NCBI RefSeq assembly: GCF_025244925.1
Contig: NZ_CP104275.1
Span: 3,286,001 to 3,350,000, forward strand
Length of the DNA: 64,000 bases
Reading direction: 5' to 3'
DNA from: Arthrobacter zhaoxinii
GTDB taxonomy: Bacteria; Actinomycetota; Actinomycetes; Actinomycetales; Micrococcaceae
Shown: in pieces, positions 16,520 to 58,492 of the stretch
Layout: each line of letters starts with the position of its first letter
Numbering within the stretch: position 1 is the first letter of the stretch
Program-made: the position numbers and the translations under genes
Notes under the pieces: model-generated
Databases searched by the model: none
What the model was told of the DNA's origin: nothing
Seen by the model: the letters and a program-made list of their open reading frames with translations, nothing else

Positions 16520-16980
16520 TTCCGGAACAGGAAGAAACACCTCCGGTTCCACCCGCCGCCTCCGAACCCGCGTCCGCACCCGGATACCTTCCGCGCCTGC
16601 TTTCCGCGGCCGCCTATGTGTCGCTGCTTGCCTCCGACAGGGCACTGGAGCGGTTCGGCCTGAACCGGAACAGCTTCGGAGTGCTGGAGCGCCTTGCCTC
16701 GGAGGCAGCCACGGAAGGCGTGCTGGCCGAGGCGACCCGCCTGGCGCCGGCAGCCGTTCAGCGGAACCTGGCGGATCTGCGGTCCTCCGGATATGCACTG
16801 CGGGGCGAATCGGGGACGTGGTCGGTGACCGATGCCGGCCTCAGGGCCATTGAATGCGCCCATCTGGCCTCTGCGGAAGCGTCCCTGGATGCGGAAGACA
16901 GCCGGGAGCTGCGGCAGGCACTGCATTCCCTCATCGCCTCACTTCGACTCGAGCAGCCGGACGGTGAGTCCCGGCCCTGA
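16516..16980 (+). CDS. Winged-helix (MarR-like) transcriptional regulator
   Basis: The 154-aa protein has a Pro-rich N-terminus (residues 1-25) and a MarR-like winged helix at about 45-120. The recognition helix region is LAPAAVQRNLADLRSSGY and the wing is GTWSVTDAGLRAIE. The GTG start at 16516 overlaps the preceding small ORF's stop and is preferred over an upstream TTG at 16426 that has no ribosome site. Its target is unknown; it is divergent from the AAHS transporter and convergent with a TetR gene. A MarR-type repressor of the transporter is possible. Confidence 0.6.
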   Translation: MIPEQEETPPVPPAASEPASAPGYLPRLLSAAAYVSLLASDRALERFGLNRNSFGVLERLASEAATEGVLAEATRLAPAAVQRNLADLRSSGYALRGESGTWSVTDAGLRAIECAHLASAEASLDAEDSRELRQALHSLIASLRLEQPDGESRP

Positions 16981-16982
16981 GC

Positions 16983-17579
16983 TCAGGGACTCCCGTACCG
17001 GGTCACCGCATCCACAAGGTCTTCCCAGCCCTTCTCCAGTCGGTGCAGGCTCATTCCTTCTTCGCCGTGCAGGTGGAGAAGCAGGCCGGCGTCAAGGAAG
17101 GCCGTCAGCTGATAGGCGGCGAGTTCCGGATCCGGTACCGGTCCGGACAGCCGGAGCAGCCCTGCAAGGTGCCGGCGTGCGAGGCTCCGGGACGGGTGCT
17201 GATAGCGCGTCCCGGGGTCGACGTCGGCCGCCCGGGCCAGCTCGCCGGTGACCTTCAGCGCCACCAGCCGGGCCAGGCCGAAGGCATGAAGACGGTCCCT
17301 GGCCGGAGCCCCAGGTCCCAGCGGCGGCGGACCGAGCAGGAAAGCAGTCTGGAAACCTTGCTCGGCATGGTCCAGGAGCGCCTGCATGAGGCCCGCGCGG
17401 GAGCCGAAGCGGCGGAATACCGTCCCCTTGCCCACGCGGGCACGGCTGGCAAGATCATCCATCGTCAAGGCGTCGGCACCGTCGGCTGCAACGAGTTCCA
17501 ACGCGGCTTCGAGCAGGCGGTTGCGGTTCCGGGCGGCATCCACCCGGATACCCGCCTGTGATGGTCCTCTCCCGCCCAT
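16983..17579 (-). CDS. TetR/AcrR family transcriptional regulator
   Basis: This 198-aa regulator has an N-terminal TetR helix-turn-helix at about residues 25-65 (DALTMDDLASRARVGKGTVF, then RRFGSRAGLMQALLDH). The ligand-binding C-terminal domain is variable. The start at 17579 is favoured; a longer reading frame that runs through the neighbouring gene is an artefact. It is divergent from the NAD(P)H:FMN reductase gene, and the 114-nt gap holds a perfect inverted repeat. It therefore probably represses both itself and the reductase, released by an electrophile or quinone-like ligand. Confidence 0.88.
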   Translation of the reverse strand: MGGRGPSQAGIRVDAARNRNRLLEAALELVAADGADALTMDDLASRARVGKGTVFRRFGSRAGLMQALLDHAEQGFQTAFLLGPPPLGPGAPARDRLHAFGLARLVALKVTGELARAADVDPGTRYQHPSRSLARRHLAGLLRLSGPVPDPELAAYQLTAFLDAGLLLHLHGEEGMSLHRLEKGWEDLVDAVTRYGSP

Positions 17580-17611
17580 GCGGGCCAGTGTAGTGCCCTC
17601 GGGAATAAAAT

Positions 17612-17625
17612 CGGACTGTAGTCCG
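17612..17625. promoter_or_regulatory. TetR operator (inverted repeat)
   Basis: CGGACT-GT-AGTCCG is a perfect 6-bp inverted repeat with a 2-nt centre, in the TetR/FMN-reductase divergent promoter region. It matches the ACGGACTGTAGTCCG-type operator common to TetR repressors of this subgroup. Confidence 0.7.
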
Positions 17626-17693
17626 CTTAAGCCATGAAGAAGAATCCGTGCTCGTGTCCGTAACCCGGCACGGCCAAGACAGGAGTTCCAATT

Positions 17694-18251
17694 TTGAGCA
17701 CCACCATCCTGACCCTCGTCGGCAGCCTTCGCGCCGGTTCCATCAACCGCCAGCTCGCTGAAGCCGCTGCCGCCGGCGCTCCGGAGGGCGTCGAGGTGAA
17801 GCTCTTCGAGGGGCTGGGCGAGATTCCGTTCTATAACGAGGATATTGATGTGGAAGGGTTCGTCCCCGAAGCCGCCCAGGCCCTGCGGAACGCAGCTGCT
17901 GCGTCCGACGGTCTGCTGCTGATCAGCCCCGAATACAACGGCACCATGCCGGCTGTCCTGAAGAACGCCATCGACTGGCTGTCCCGTCCCTTCGGCGCCG
18001 GTGCCATCTCCGGCATGCCAACTGCCGTCATCGGCTCTGCCTTCGGCCAGTACGGCGGTGTCTGGGCCCAGGACGACGCACGTAAGTCGGTCGGTATTGC
18101 CGGGGCCCGCGTCGTCGAGGAAGTGCGCCTGGCCATCGGAGGCTCCGTGACGCGCTACGACGGAATCCATCCGCAGGATGACCCGGATACCGTGGCCCAG
18201 CTTGGTGAGGCAGTCCGCGTTCTCGCGGATGCATCCGTCTCCGCAGCCTAG
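17694..18251 (+). CDS. NAD(P)H-dependent FMN reductase (chromate/azo-reductase type)
   Basis: This 185-aa flavodoxin-like reductase (FMN_red family) carries the phosphate-binding loop GSLRAGSINRQLA near residues 11-23. The SPEYNGTMPAVLKNAIDWLS motif is near 79-98. The TTG start at 17694 is preceded by AGGAG at 8 nt. The enzyme reduces quinones, chromate or azo compounds using FMN. It is paired with a divergent TetR repressor and ends at a strong terminator. The exact substrate cannot be assigned. Confidence 0.9.
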   Translation: MSTTILTLVGSLRAGSINRQLAEAAAAGAPEGVEVKLFEGLGEIPFYNEDIDVEGFVPEAAQALRNAAAASDGLLLISPEYNGTMPAVLKNAIDWLSRPFGAGAISGMPTAVIGSAFGQYGGVWAQDDARKSVGIAGARVVEEVRLAIGGSVTRYDGIHPQDDPDTVAQLGEAVRVLADASVSAA

Positions 18252-18268
18252 GCACGCACAGACATAAA

Positions 18269-18302
18269 GAGAGGGACGGACCGTCAGCGGTCCGTCCCTC
18301 TC
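18269..18302 (+). terminator. Rho-independent terminator after the FMN reductase
   Basis: A 14-bp stem (18269-18282 with 18289-18302) encloses a 6-nt loop and is followed by CCTTT. It also faces the convergent 62-aa gene. Confidence 0.85.
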
Positions 18303-18318
18303 CTTTGCAGCGGGTCGC

Positions 18319-18507
18319 CTAGAACCAGACCTCGTCGGCCCACGCCGCATCCCGGAGATATTCCCGGGCCGGGCCGACGTTCCACGCTTCTCCGTTGGAC
18401 GCCAGGACCCCGCTGTTTTTCAGGTCGGCAAGGACGTCCTCCGAGCAGCCGAGGACCGACCCCAGCTCCTGGGAGTCCGCCACCACTACTTCTTCATGAT
18501 CGGCCAC
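18319..18507 (-). CDS. 62-aa small protein downstream of the thiopeptide-type gene (HTH-like)
   Basis: This 62-aa protein starts with GTG at 18507, preceded by GGAAGGGG, and lies 30 nt after the thiopeptide-type gene on the same strand. Its N-terminus is acidic (ADHEEVVVAD). Residues 10-50 look like a small MerR/excisionase-type helix-turn-helix: SQELGSVLGCSEDVLADLKN, followed by SGVLASNGEAWNVGPAREYL. The order of its conserved positions matches the HTH of the 13192-13620 product. It ends in AWADEVWF. It could be a regulator or a scaffold peptide for its neighbour; the first fits the sequence better. Confidence 0.6.
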   Translation of the reverse strand: MADHEEVVVADSQELGSVLGCSEDVLADLKNSGVLASNGEAWNVGPAREYLRDAAWADEVWF

Positions 18508-18537
18508 CGGATGGGCCCCCTTCCCGTTTATGCGCGG

Positions 18538-19497
18538 TCAGCGCTTATCAAGCAGAACCGACTCGCGTTCCGGACTCCATGTGCGTGCGTACAGTCCCAT
18601 GGCCGCTTCTTCGCGCAGGCTCAGGCCAAGGCGGTTCAGAAGCATGTGGGCCTGGTAGACCGTTAAGTGCTGGGCGCTTCGGCTCAGCCGGGCCTTGTCC
18701 GCCCGGTACAGGTACGTGTCGATTCCGCGGAACCAGCGGCGGCGCCAGTTCTCGACGGCGGATTCGGCTGCCGTCGCTGCCATGAGGCGGTGCGTCGGCA
18801 TGACCTTTGCGCCAATCTGGACCGTCATGGCCTGCCGGACGCCGGCTGCACGAGGACCGAACCCTGCGGTGCAGCTGCGCAGGTGGCTGTCCCAGTAATA
18901 GTCCCAGGAGAGCCGGCGGCGGTCCGGCCAGGCTGACGCCCGCGGACCCTTCATCATGCTCCGGGCTGCGTCAAACAGCAGAAGCGAACCGAGTGCCCAG
19001 CGGTTCTGGACTTTGGGGAAGCGTGCGGTGGCCCAGCTGGCCAGATCCGAGGAGAGTTCAAAAACCTCCTCCGCGAGGGAGAGACCCTCCACACCGCCGT
19101 ATTTGGCGAGGTCTGCTTCAACACGGGGGTCCTGCGGCTCGCTGCCCCCGGGGCTGAGCCTGTCCGTGGCCGGCTCGCTGAACTGTTGGCTTGTTTCCAG
19201 GTGGCCGATGACGCCGCTGGACTGTTCCTGCAGTGCAACCAGCAACGACTGCAGCCGGTCGAGGGTGTTCATATTGGCCAGTATGCGGAGCTTTACGTGT
19301 GCGTGGGCCGGTTCCGAGCAGCGGGTGAAATACCAGCGCTGCGCTCCAAGGACCTGGGCCTGAGCCGCCAGCGGGGTAACCAGTTCTCCGATGACGCCGT
19401 CCGCTACATCAAAGCCCCCGGTATGAATGGAGAGTGACCACCAATGAGTGCCGGGTTGCGTCCGTGAGGCTGGTCGAACTGCAGCTAGCTGGCTCAT
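18538..19497 (-). CDS. Orphan thiopeptide-type/lantibiotic dehydratase C-terminal domain protein (paralog 1)
   Basis: The 319-aa protein is a stand-alone member of the lantibiotic dehydratase C-terminal/thiopeptide-type family (PF14028/TIGR03891). Seen motifs are WWSLSIHTGG, RWYFTRCSEPAHAHVKLRI (family: RWfFIR..HlRLR), EADLAKYGG (family: E..RYGG) and LAEEVFELSSDL. Relatives perform glutamate elimination from Ser/Thr or [4+2] pyridine formation on RiPP precursors. No LanB glutamylation domain, cyclodehydratase or transporter is near, so the substrate is unknown. A second copy lies at 56754-57704. A heptapeptide ORF and hairpins precede it. Function is inferred from family only. Confidence 0.72.
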   Translation of the reverse strand: MSQLAAVRPASRTQPGTHWWSLSIHTGGFDVADGVIGELVTPLAAQAQVLGAQRWYFTRCSEPAHAHVKLRILANMNTLDRLQSLLVALQEQSSGVIGHLETSQQFSEPATDRLSPGGSEPQDPRVEADLAKYGGVEGLSLAEEVFELSSDLASWATARFPKVQNRWALGSLLLFDAARSMMKGPRASAWPDRRRLSWDYYWDSHLRSCTAGFGPRAAGVRQAMTVQIGAKVMPTHRLMAATAAESAVENWRRRWFRGIDTYLYRADKARLSRSAQHLTVYQAHMLLNRLGLSLREEAAMGLYARTWSPERESVLLDKR

Positions 19498-19507
19498 ATG
19501 TGTCTTT

Positions 19508-19555
19508 CCCCTCGGGGTCTGGTTACCGCCGGCTGGCGGCCTGGAATTGTTCCAG
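19508..19555 (-). promoter_or_regulatory. Leader hairpins before the thiopeptide-type gene
   Basis: Reading toward the gene, three inverted repeats lie between the heptapeptide ORF and the start codon. They are CTGGAACAATTCCAG (19555-19541), CCGCCAGCCGGCGG (19539-19526) and CCCCGAGGGG (19517-19508). The last one would pair the CCCC against the GAGGGG that serves as the ribosome site of the 19497 start. This could act as a translational or transcriptional attenuator, with the first repeat possibly an operator. Confidence 0.45.
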
Positions 19556-19587
19556 TTACGGGTGGTTTGCCCTGTACGGGCCTTCGG

Positions 19588-19611
19588 TTAGAACCAGTCC
19601 CAGCTCTTCAT
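19588..19611 (-). CDS. Heptapeptide ORF MKSWDWF in the leader of the thiopeptide-type gene
   Basis: ATG 19611 opens a 7-codon ORF, MKSWDWF, ending at TAA. It is preceded by AAGGGGGA with 8 nt spacing, a strong ribosome site. It sits 90 nt upstream of the thiopeptide-type gene on the same strand. Two of seven codons are Trp. It may be a leader peptide of a Trp-sensing attenuator, or a minimal RiPP precursor like the 7-aa MccA of microcin C or the pentapeptide precursors of biarylitides. Both readings are inference. Confidence 0.35.
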   Translation of the reverse strand: MKSWDWF

Positions 19612-19910
19612 GATCGCTATCCCCCTTGGGTCTTAGGCTGTTGCTCAGCCGGCGCCTTGATTGACTCCGAAAGCTTCCCCCGCCGTTGCACGGCCTGTAA
19701 ATACCCTCCGCTGCCCGGTTCCTGACATGTCCGGATGTGGACCCGCAAAGTGTCACGTCCGGGCCGCAGGAGGCGCAGGGCGCAGGCTTTCGGCGACAGG
19801 CGCATCGGATTGCCGCCGATGTCATTAACCGGCCATGTCCTGCATTTCAAAGTGTGTTGCAGTCATAAAACACTTTCGCCACACCCGGACCGCAATCCGC
19901 GCCCACTGGG
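19612..19910. other. Intergenic region between the thiopeptide-type and TrmB/LuxR-like genes
   Basis: About 300 nt of non-coding DNA between divergent genes. It has lower GC islands (such as 19835-19875) and should hold the promoters of both units. No convincing gene is seen in any frame. A TTGATTGACTCC stretch at 19656 and an AT-rich AGTCATAAAACACTTTC stretch at about 19860 are the best promoter or operator candidates, but no clear box pair could be fixed. Confidence 0.4.
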
Positions 19911-19916
19911 TAGGGT
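19911..19916 (+). promoter_or_regulatory. Candidate -10 box of the TrmB/LuxR-like regulator gene
   Basis: TAGGGT lies 44 nt before the preferred GTG start, and 4 nt before an in-frame GTG at 19921 that could be a leaderless start. No good -35 is seen. Confidence 0.3.
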
Positions 19917-19959
19917 AGCTGTGGGGGCTCCTGCTAACGCTGTCGAGAAAGGATTCGCC

Positions 19960-20928
19960 GTGCTGTCTCAGGTTTCGCTCGACGTCTACCGCTTTGCCGT
20001 AAGCCGCCCGGGATGGACGGCCGAGGAGGCTTCCGAAGCCCTGGGGTACACCAGCCGGGCGATCGACACTGCCATCACCGAGCTGACGGCACGCTGCCTC
20101 CTGCTGAAGCAGGCCGCCGACTGCCCCAGCTACACGGCCGTGTCCCCCGACGTGGCCCTCGCCGAACTGGTTGATCCGGACGAACGGACCCTGTTGGAAC
20201 TGCGCGGCAGGATCAATGCCCGCCGCAGGGAGATGGCCTCGCTGACGCCCGCCTACGTTGAGGCACGCAAGCGCCTTGCCGCCGATTCATCGGTCGAGGT
20301 GGTTGAGGATCAGGAGAAAGTCCAGCGGGTTCTGATTGAGTACGGCCGCAGCGCCACCGACCGAGTCCTGATTGCCCGTCCCGGGCAGGGCGCCAATGCC
20401 GACATTCATGAAGAAAGCGTGGAGAAGGACCTGGACCTGCTGCGCAGCGGAGTACAGCGGCAGACGCTCTACCACGCCAGCACCCGGGACCATGTGCCTA
20501 CCCGCAAGGCGGTGGAAATCATTACCGAAGCCGGTGGGCAGTTCCGCACCCTTCCCTACATGCCCCTGCGGACGCTCATTTTCGATGACAAAGTGGCAGT
20601 GGTGGCCCGCGACCTGCATCCCGGCGATGTTGCCGGGCTGGTGGTGCGGGATCCCAATCTGATCCGGATTTTCGGCCTGCTCTTCGAGTTCGCGTGGGGA
20701 CTGGCGGAACCGTTCCTGACGGACAATCCGGGCCGGGAGGACCTCACCAGCACGCAGCGGGCGGTATTCACGGCGCTGGCGTCCGGGTATTCGGATGAGG
20801 CCATTGCCCGCCGGGTGGGGATCAGCGTGCGCACCTGCCGCCGCCACATCGCCTGGATGCTGGAAGAGCTGGGTGCGGAGAGCCGCTTCCAGGCCGGGAT
20901 CAAGGCGCACAAGGCCGGCTGGATCTAG
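19960..20928 (+). CDS. TrmB/LuxR-type transcriptional regulator
   Basis: This 322-aa regulator has three parts. An N-terminal TrmB-like winged helix covers about residues 1-60 (VSRPGWTAEEASEALGYTSR). The middle region resembles the sensor domain of these regulators. The C-terminal LuxR helix-turn-helix covers about 262-315 (LTSTQRAVFTALASGYSDEA, then IARRVGISVRTCRRHIAWML). The start GTG 19960 has AAAGGA 7 nt upstream; GTG 19921 is in frame and possible. It is divergent from the thiopeptide-type gene. Regulators with this layout are frequent near lanthipeptide-like clusters in Actinobacteria, so local control is likely. Confidence 0.75.
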   Translation: MLSQVSLDVYRFAVSRPGWTAEEASEALGYTSRAIDTAITELTARCLLLKQAADCPSYTAVSPDVALAELVDPDERTLLELRGRINARRREMASLTPAYVEARKRLAADSSVEVVEDQEKVQRVLIEYGRSATDRVLIARPGQGANADIHEESVEKDLDLLRSGVQRQTLYHASTRDHVPTRKAVEIITEAGGQFRTLPYMPLRTLIFDDKVAVVARDLHPGDVAGLVVRDPNLIRIFGLLFEFAWGLAEPFLTDNPGREDLTSTQRAVFTALASGYSDEAIARRVGISVRTCRRHIAWMLEELGAESRFQAGIKAHKAGWI

Positions 20929-56753: not shown

Positions 56754-57704
56754 ATGACCCAGCCAGCCGTACTCCGCACCCCCGCCCGCCCGTCCCCCCG
56801 CCTCGCGTGGTGGAACCTGACCATTGATGCCGGTGGTTTTGAACTGGCCGACCGGATCATTGGTGAACTCGTGGCACCCCTTATTGCCCAGGCAAGGCTG
56901 TGTGGAACCCAGCGGTGGTTCTATACCCGCCGCATGCAGCCCTCGAATGCTCAGGTCCGGCTTCGCGTGCTCGCCCCGCCGGAGACCCTGGAGCGGCTCA
57001 AGTCCCTGCTGGGAGCCCTGCAGGAACAGTCCGGAGATCCGGTGCGCAGCCTCGCAGTGGAGCATGATTTCAGCGAGCCGGTGCTGGACCGGACCGTCGG
57101 CACGGACGCCCTGCTGCCGTCAGTCGAAGCCGATCTGGCCCGCTACGGCGGAGTTGACGGGCTTGCCCTCGCGGAAGAAGTCTTCGAGCTTTCATCCGAT
57201 CTCTGCCTCTGGGCAACGGCACGGTTTGCGAAGGCGCAGAACCGGTCCGCCCTGGCTTCGCTCCTGCTCTTCGATTCCGCCTACGCGATGATGAAGGGAC
57301 CCCGCGCGTCCACCTGGCCGGACCGTCGTCGGGTCTCCTGGGAGTACTACTGGGACAGCCATCTCCACAGCTGCACTGCAACAGACCCGCGGGCCGCCGG
57401 AGTGCAGAAGGCCACCGGGGCGCAGGCACAGGCCCAGTTGATGCCCGTCCACCGCCTGATGATGGCCACGGCGTCCGAATCCGCAGTCACGAACTGGCGC
57501 AGGCGCTGGCTGCGGACCATAGACACCTACCTGTACCGGGCGGACAAGGCCGGAGCCAGCCGCAGCGCCCAGCACCTCACCGTTTTCCAGGCGCACGGCC
57601 TGTTGAACCGGCTGGGATTCACCCTTCGCCAGGAGGCACTGATCGGGGTTTATGCGCGCACCTGGAGCCGGGAGAAGGAAGTGGAGCTGGCGGAGGCCAC
57701 CTGA
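56754..57704 (+). CDS. Orphan thiopeptide-type/lantibiotic dehydratase C-terminal domain protein (paralog 2)
   Basis: The 316-aa protein is a paralog of the 18538-19497 product. By eye, in an 85-residue block starting EADLARYGG and ending DSHLHSCTA, 16 positions differ (about 81% identity). The N-terminal third is less similar. It keeps WWNLTIDAGGFELADRIIGEL, RWFYTRRMQPSNAQVRLRV and EADLARYGG; the His before the RLR strand in paralog 1 is Gln here. The start at 56754 has AAAGGA at about 5 nt; longer in-frame starts are possible. It stands alone between a divergent histidine kinase and a GAF-ANTAR gene, with no precursor or partner enzyme. Confidence 0.72.
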   Translation: MTQPAVLRTPARPSPRLAWWNLTIDAGGFELADRIIGELVAPLIAQARLCGTQRWFYTRRMQPSNAQVRLRVLAPPETLERLKSLLGALQEQSGDPVRSLAVEHDFSEPVLDRTVGTDALLPSVEADLARYGGVDGLALAEEVFELSSDLCLWATARFAKAQNRSALASLLLFDSAYAMMKGPRASTWPDRRRVSWEYYWDSHLHSCTATDPRAAGVQKATGAQAQAQLMPVHRLMMATASESAVTNWRRRWLRTIDTYLYRADKAGASRSAQHLTVFQAHGLLNRLGFTLRQEALIGVYARTWSREKEVELAEAT

Positions 57705-57760: not shown

Positions 57761-58492
57761 ATGAGCCTAACCGCGGACCAACACTCCGTTGCAGCTGAAT
57801 TGCAGCAGCTAATTCTGCAGACCGAGTCGGTGGAGCTCTTCCTCGAGGGCTTCGCCACGCGTGCGGCTGAACTTTTCAGCAGCGACGCCGAAGTCCTGGC
57901 CGGGGTGACGCTGCTTCGGAACAAACAGGGCACCACCGTGGCCAGCAGCAGCGAGGCGGCGCGGGCGCTGGACGAAGTCCAGTACGGCTTCGGAGACGGA
58001 CCGTGCCTGCGGGCCTCACGGACGGGGCGGACCGTCATGGTGGAAGATGTGCGCACCGACCCGCGGTGGCCGGACTATACGGACGCCATCCGGGACCGCG
58101 GTTTCCATTCCATCCTCGGCGTCCCGCTTATCCTCGGTAACGACGGCGGTGCCGGACTGAACCTGTACGCCCGGGACGCGGGCCACTTCACGCCGCACAT
58201 CGTCCAGTCTGCCGAAACGTTCGCCGCCGAGGCCGCAGTCACCCTGCAACTGGCCGTCCAGATCGCCCGGCACAAGAGCACAGCCGATCATCTCCGCGCG
58301 GCCATGGAAGCCAGGACCACCATCGACGTTGCCGTGGGCATTGTCATGGCGCAGAACAAATGCAGCCAGGAAGCGGCCTTCGAGATCCTGAGCGGTGCCT
58401 CCAGCAACCGGAACGTGAAACTCCGGGACGTAGCCGAGCGCGTGGTGCAGTCCGTAACCGCGCAGACTGTGAAAACGCACTTCGTCGACTAG
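57761..58492 (+). CDS. GAF and ANTAR domain protein (RNA-binding antiterminator)
   Basis: This 243-aa protein has a GAF domain at about 15-155 (GFGDGPCLRASRTGRTVMVED, ILGVPLILGNDGGAGLNLYA) and an ANTAR domain at about 180-235 (IDVAVGIVMAQNKCSQEAAF, SGASSNRNVKLRDVAERVV). ANTAR binds two-hexaloop RNA to prevent termination. It probably senses a ligand through GAF. It is transcribed from a leaderless promoter just after the thiopeptide-type paralog. Target RNAs are not visible here. Confidence 0.85.
   Translation: MSLTADQHSVAAELQQLILQTESVELFLEGFATRAAELFSSDAEVLAGVTLLRNKQGTTVASSSEAARALDEVQYGFGDGPCLRASRTGRTVMVEDVRTDPRWPDYTDAIRDRGFHSILGVPLILGNDGGAGLNLYARDAGHFTPHIVQSAETFAAEAAVTLQLAVQIARHKSTADHLRAAMEARTTIDVAVGIVMAQNKCSQEAAFEILSGASSNRNVKLRDVAERVVQSVTAQTVKTHFVD

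Follow-up and report, generated by a model that had tools for sequence, protein, structure and literature searches.

Here we analysed a stretch of 64,000 nucleotides from Arthrobacter zhaoxinii (contig NZ_CP104275.1, positions 3,286,001 to 3,350,000; hereafter the window, to which coordinates refer unless another contig or locus is named). The window encodes a stand-alone protein of the family PF14028 with 319 amino acids (18538..19497, minus strand), in the following called copy 1. We consider it fairly probable that copy 1 is the peptide-modifying, or at least peptide-handling, enzyme of a minimal cassette resembling those of ribosomally synthesized and post-translationally modified peptides (RiPPs), which would stem from a split-LanB cluster without its glutamylase. 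The cassette comprises a peptide gene, the enzyme gene and a gene with a Trp-rich tail, together with a regulator, and it recurs across Arthrobacter sensu lato. The likely substrate of copy 1 would be a heptapeptide, MKSWDWF, and the Trp-rich C-terminus of a protein of 62 amino acids is a possible further substrate.

The peptide gene and the Trp-tailed gene

On the minus strand 5' of copy 1, we observed a Shine-Dalgarno-like run AAGGGGG (19621-19627), a short spacer and ATG AAG AGC TGG GAC TGG TTC TAA. This 7-codon open reading frame (ORF; 19588..19611, minus strand) was recognised by reading the sequence, by a pattern search and by homologous [WY]xW ORFs, and we regard MKSWDWF as a candidate precursor peptide. 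A preliminary description made from the sequence alone had stated that no core peptide lies near either of two PF14028 copies in the window, which is false for copy 1. When the search pattern for the heptapeptide gene was relaxed, the whole genome contained only the gene itself without mismatch and one other site with one mismatch, which equals the backwards control.

We scanned genome contigs and obtained 68 distinct loci, 51 of group A and 17 paralogues; with the window copies, group A has 52 loci (including copy 1) and the paralogues 18 (including copy 2, see below). Two divergent loci with assumed enzyme starts (L105 and L106) bring the group-A upstream regions to 54. The groups were split by sequence type and context, partly after the peptide was known, and many of the 54 regions are closely related; the deeper cases are L020, L042/L048, L049 to L059, L105 and L106. 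An ORF with [WY]-x-W within its last 14 residues is present in 53 of the 54 regions, compared to a mean of 1.7 and a maximum of 5 in dinucleotide shuffles of the same regions. The sole exception, L047, contains SWDWPK followed by a longer tail. Between the end of the peptide gene and the enzyme lie 76-121 bp (56 bp in L105 and 148 bp in L106); in L041 the gap is 203 bp, and the match there starts within the protein.

The peptides take three forms. In the first, a start that resembles a signal peptide by eye is followed by a single motif at the C-terminus or close to it, as in ...VAAWDW (L055), ...AIWDWKN (L042) and ...AIWGWPQKT (L048). In the second, such a start precedes two to four cores (SWDWPK, NWEWPK, VWDWPQQ). 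The third form is short and has no signal-like start, as in MKKATAPVSIKSWEWF, MTKVWDWI and MKSWDWF; the short form of L022 has seven residues and then three SWDWPK cores. Among the names visible, the longer relatives are annotated as 'hypothetical' or 'uncharacterized'.

The core is under purifying selection as a peptide, as tested on twelve longer relatives rather than on the 7-codon form. In these twelve agilis-type genes, the amino acids S-W-D-W-P-K are invariant in both cores while the codons for D, P and K vary synonymously and the spacer between the cores changes freely; this combination indicates selection on the peptide. The cores inside each of L020, L022, L032 and L034 have synonymous differences only, and the window's clade shows interchange of GAC with GAT, of GAA with GAG and among all three stop codons at the same sites.

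Downstream of the enzyme, 18319..18507 (minus strand) encodes the protein of 62 amino acids, which has the conserved C-terminus YLRDAAWADEVWF. Its family members of about 63 amino acids have a near-invariant C-terminus, YLRDAAWADxxWx, and L049, L055 and L058 combine the same C-terminus with different N-terminal parts. The motif gene is found at 51 of the 52 loci, with L105 and L106 outside this count. Among the names visible for this family, all are 'hypothetical' or 'uncharacterized' save one 'DNA-binding protein'. The AlphaFold2 model is of modest confidence (predicted local distance difference test score 75) and consists of a pair of helices, a hairpin and, at the C-terminus, a long helix containing most of the motif; a search of solved structures with this model gave a best E value of 0.46. 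The protein could act as a second precursor or in a small accessory role, and its variable N-terminal and fixed C-terminal parts favour the first option.

Enzyme family, missing partners and origin

The preliminary description had placed two PF14028 proteins in the window, copy 1 and the product of 56754..57704 (plus strand; copy 2). Both the coordinates and the family assignment are correct, with PF14028 (Lant_dehydr_C) scores of 68.2 and 74.9 bits above the cut-off of 24.4, whereas only copy 1 passes TIGR03891 (49.0 bits versus 37.8 for copy 2, cut-off 48.45). The copies share 64% identity across 315 aligned positions; the described stretch of about 81% over 85 residues is recovered as 69/85 (81%). 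Among the motifs reported as shared, RWYFTR (copy 1) and RWFYTR (copy 2) as well as KYGG and RYGG are present, whereas the RLR strand belongs to copy 2 and reads KLR in copy 1. The genome is a single contig of 3.47 Mb in which PF14028 finds these two copies only. A family profile finds four, so that the count of two has to be revised; copies 3 and 4 form a tandem pair (C1:3205276-3206199 and 3206718-3207632, both on the minus strand).

The predicted model of copy 1 matches the LanB-elimination/pyridine-synthase fold, as had been anticipated, and the fold search matches include the C-domains of NisB and MibB as well as TsrL. The family sequence profile gave no match to PDB chains, whereas the fold search did. 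PADLOC gave no match for copy 1, copy 2 or the protein of 62 amino acids, and weak matches restricted to the helix-turn-helix (HTH) for the regulator. At the positions of the NisB elimination residues R786, R826 and H961, copy 1 has R, K and H, where H961 was placed by motif spacing; across 50 group-A rows, the R826 position is K or R in 44. Enzyme genes at L050 and L062 are short fragments in their assemblies (compare the region 18551-18538 of the window), which may reflect cassette decay or assembly errors.

We did not find PF04738 (LanB-N) in the genome, either by profile or with a LanB-N relative as query; G300 and G312 were positive in the same runs, and one first PF04738 search had no positive control. 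LanC (PF05147) and YcaO (PF02624) were not found in the genome either, with controls positive in one and five of 14 named genomes, respectively. These negatives cover LanB-N, LanC and YcaO; the searches did not extend to lanthipeptide enzymes of classes II-V. Thus, the LanB-N gene elsewhere in the genome that the preliminary description had proposed to look for is not found, and its suggestion that the fold is used outside classical lanthipeptides and thiopeptides is supported. Among the 30 enzyme-bearing genomes, PF04738 was not found in 28; the peptide-gene counts were made per locus and not genome by genome in these 28.

The nearest outgroup enzymes, L103 and L104, come from the two other genomes, where each is immediately preceded by a PF04738 gene (scores of 48.4 and 30.1 bits; cut-off 28). 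The corresponding split-LanB clusters (L103:14-4815 and L104:282-4832) come from two other genera of the family and are each led by an M50-peptidase-type protein, which in L103 has a weak PqqD-like region below the cut-off. L104 also contains a regulator of the same type and an ORF of 47 amino acids with NWAEAMWP, which by eye resembles the WADxxW tail. In the tree, groups A, B, B2, C and D form a 70-row clade (100/99) that excludes L103 and L104, and the paralogue groups branch inside the group-A range. Midpoint rooting was used, and long branches lead to L103, L104 and four farther rows; the four were assumed to be ordinary split-LanB enzymes from the look of their neighbours, without a PF04738 test. 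The simplest history would be a loss of the glutamylase followed by duplications in the window's genus.

Copies 2 to 4 look like derived paralogues, falling in groups that branch inside the cassette clade; for copy 2, this assignment draws on profile matches, the tree and an upstream comparison. For copy 2, no W-x-W ORF was found within 900 bp upstream in L003-L007, and the DNA conserved ahead of copy 2 and ahead of the tandem pair has no steady reading frame by eye. A [WY]xW ORF occurs upstream of three (L060, L070 and the fourth copy of the genome) out of 20 paralogues, a rate above the shuffled mean of 1.7 in 54; the distances of these ORFs are unmatched, and we treat them as probably due to chance.

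The tandem pair in the window's own genome (L075:7232-8239 and L075:8704-9744, minus strand) lacks the pocket His, and its upstream DNA contains a conserved ATGGACnTnCA...TTTTGG that would give MDLHVLGTQ or MDIHILATQ if read. Copy 2 is followed by a GAF-ANTAR protein (57761-58492, plus strand), whose family occurs at 7 of the 18 paralogue loci and, at varied distance, at 16 of the 52 group-A loci.

Proposed function and alternative explanations

We infer that the heptapeptide ORF is translated, that its product is the substrate of copy 1 and is covalently changed, and that the cassette arose from a split-LanB cluster through loss of the glutamyl-tRNA-dependent glutamylase. Classical dehydration is unlikely because without LanB-N no glutamyl ester would be formed. 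With the glutamylase presumably lost, the old glutamate-elimination pocket would need to have another job, and in the retained His pocket the aromatic-x-Trp core would probably undergo acid/base chemistry that needs no cofactor. The product might serve as a signal or as an antimicrobial. More tentatively, and with somewhat less than even confidence, we propose a new RiPP class in which W-x-W peptides are matured by an elimination domain only, free of LanB, through a Trp-directed reaction for which the fold was recruited. In one lineage of this class, a secreted multi-core precursor would have been reduced to a leaderless heptapeptide, the Trp-tailed protein being a second precursor.

Several observations weigh against a RiPP-like cassette with copy 1 as its enzyme. 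Across 50 group-A rows, the R786 position holds R in 20, S in 12, H in 8, K in 6 and N in 4. In the middle of the core, L048 has G and L105 has A (core IWAWP), so that an acidic side chain is not essential everywhere, and the first aromatic residue is Tyr in L106 (core IYDWP). As the window's clade lost the signal-peptide-like stretch, export is unexplained, and we recognised neither a transporter nor a protease in the conserved neighbourhood, whose clusters were read by eye and are partly annotated. L047 has no Trp-tailed gene, none was seen within 420 bp behind the enzyme of L106, and copies 2 to 4 have no conserved peptide gene.

The main rival, which we consider rather unlikely, is that the enzyme is a non-catalytic binder that captures, protects or presents the W-x-W peptide unchanged, perhaps to the regulator. 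The degenerate R786 position is consistent with such a role, as is the loss of the pocket His in paralogue groups C (9/9) and B2 (3/3). In contrast, group A keeps His at the H961 position in 48 of the 50 rows and Arg at the R966 position in 49, and the helical part of the enzyme contains many invariant residues, which speaks against a pure binder.

Less probable still is that the peptide ORF acts as an attenuator-like leader, in which ribosomes pausing at the two Trp codons tune the translation or transcription of the enzyme gene. The two Trp codons are close to each other, the window ORF has just 7 codons, and the intergenic region contains conserved stem-loops. A small stem-loop lies just 3' of the peptide ORF (19569..19581, minus strand), with one covarying pair in 15 relatives, and a conserved element with a small hairpin precedes the enzyme (19521-19540, minus strand), which reads GCCGCCAGCCGGCGGTAACC in the window and CGCCCCAGCGGnGGTAACCA in many relatives. 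Such stem-loops in precursor operons can shift the output towards precursor over enzyme. RNAalifold suggested that the core codons pair with the element before the enzyme, but this pairing did not exceed that of shuffled sequences (mean z -0.16; 1/50 below -2), which makes attenuation by core-codon pairing less likely. Furthermore, no attenuator family of Rfam matched, and of four terminator-like sites in 16900-20000 (2.0 expected) none lies between the peptide ORF and the enzyme. The relatives with signal-peptide-like starts, up to four cores and strict core amino acids also speak against a leader.

The view of the preliminary description, in which copy 1 is an orphan with a stand-alone, perhaps housekeeping, use of the fold and the small ORFs are coincidental neighbours, is very improbable: copies 2 to 4 without a nearby conserved peptide gene would fit it, but copy 1 is part of a conserved peptide-enzyme-peptide cassette that is accompanied by a regulator, the peptide gene is present at nearly every group-A locus, and the enzyme occurs in only 30 of 149 sampled family genomes.

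Regulator, distribution and relation to known systems

A divergent gene next to the peptide gene encodes a regulator with a C-terminal LuxR-type HTH (19735..20928, plus strand; 397 amino acids), recognised by Pfam and homologues. Its true start is probably later, because most alignments with strong homologues begin at residues 47-83. This regulator is found at 49 of the 52 group-A loci and at none of the 18 paralogue loci; at an E value of 2e-42 or lower, it occurs in 29 of the 30 enzyme-bearing genomes (G300 being the exception) and in none of the remaining family genomes. The regulator probably controls the cassette. Of the three exceptions among the loci, L016 was listed gene by gene; there, other metabolic genes take the regulator's place and the three-gene core stays together. 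In the window's clade, a conserved DNA box, GGGAAGCTTTCGGAGTCAA (19661..19679, minus strand), precedes the peptide ORF and is a candidate operator; it occurs once in the window and is absent at copy 2. Behind the regulator lies an aminotransferase (PF00155; 20990..22294, plus strand; 47/52 loci). The contig WNZI01000025.1 (L052), labelled Vibrio cholerae strain 35D, carries an Arthrobacter-type cassette; its label or assembly is probably wrong.

To our knowledge, stand-alone LanB elimination domains have two known reactions, glutamate elimination and pyridine-forming cycloaddition, each of which requires a LanB glutamylase. With split glutamate-elimination enzymes of class I lanthipeptides and thiopeptides, such as TbtC, copy 1 shares PF14028, the fold and the position of the pocket His, and its outgroup kin lie beside LanB-N. 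It differs in that no LanB-N was found in the Arthrobacter genome, the R786 position is not conserved and the W-x-W peptide lacks the Ser/Thr/Cys set of lanthipeptides. In contrast to the pyridine synthases (TbtD, PbtD; TsrL), neither LanB-N nor YcaO, a cyclodehydratase usual in thiopeptide systems, was found, and a W-x-W core with at most one Ser cannot supply the two dehydroalanines for a formal [4+2] reaction. Peptide aminoacyl-tRNA ligases (PEARLs) are related to the LanB glutamylation part, which is missing in the Arthrobacter genome. As far as the literature extracts describe them, PEARLs share LanB kinship, short peptides and Trp chemistry (ammosamides) with our system. In the parts of the literature available, biarylitides, which are P450-crosslinked RiPPs with a five-residue precursor, likewise have a tiny, unannotated, leaderless precursor gene before one enzyme and an aromatic-x-aromatic core, whereas here the enzyme is of PF14028 and relatives have signal-peptide-like multi-core precursors. 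A Pfam scan found no cytochrome P450 among the ten neighbours of copies 1 and 2. The cassette is undescribed among the literature matches listed, which cover preprints and subscription journals thinly. A circular bacteriocin is known from Arthrobacter sp. APC 3897 (PMC10456417), and the available passages of that paper do not mention the cassette.

There is a real chance that the cassette is a new class rather than a variant. Its peptides illustrate how such systems can evade annotation, as the 7-codon gene was missed by gene finders and the longer relatives are called hypothetical or uncharacterized. A conserved cassette that retains just the elimination domain beside tiny Trp-rich peptides allows a third activity of the fold to be tested directly, using a single synthetic heptapeptide and a single protein of 319 residues.
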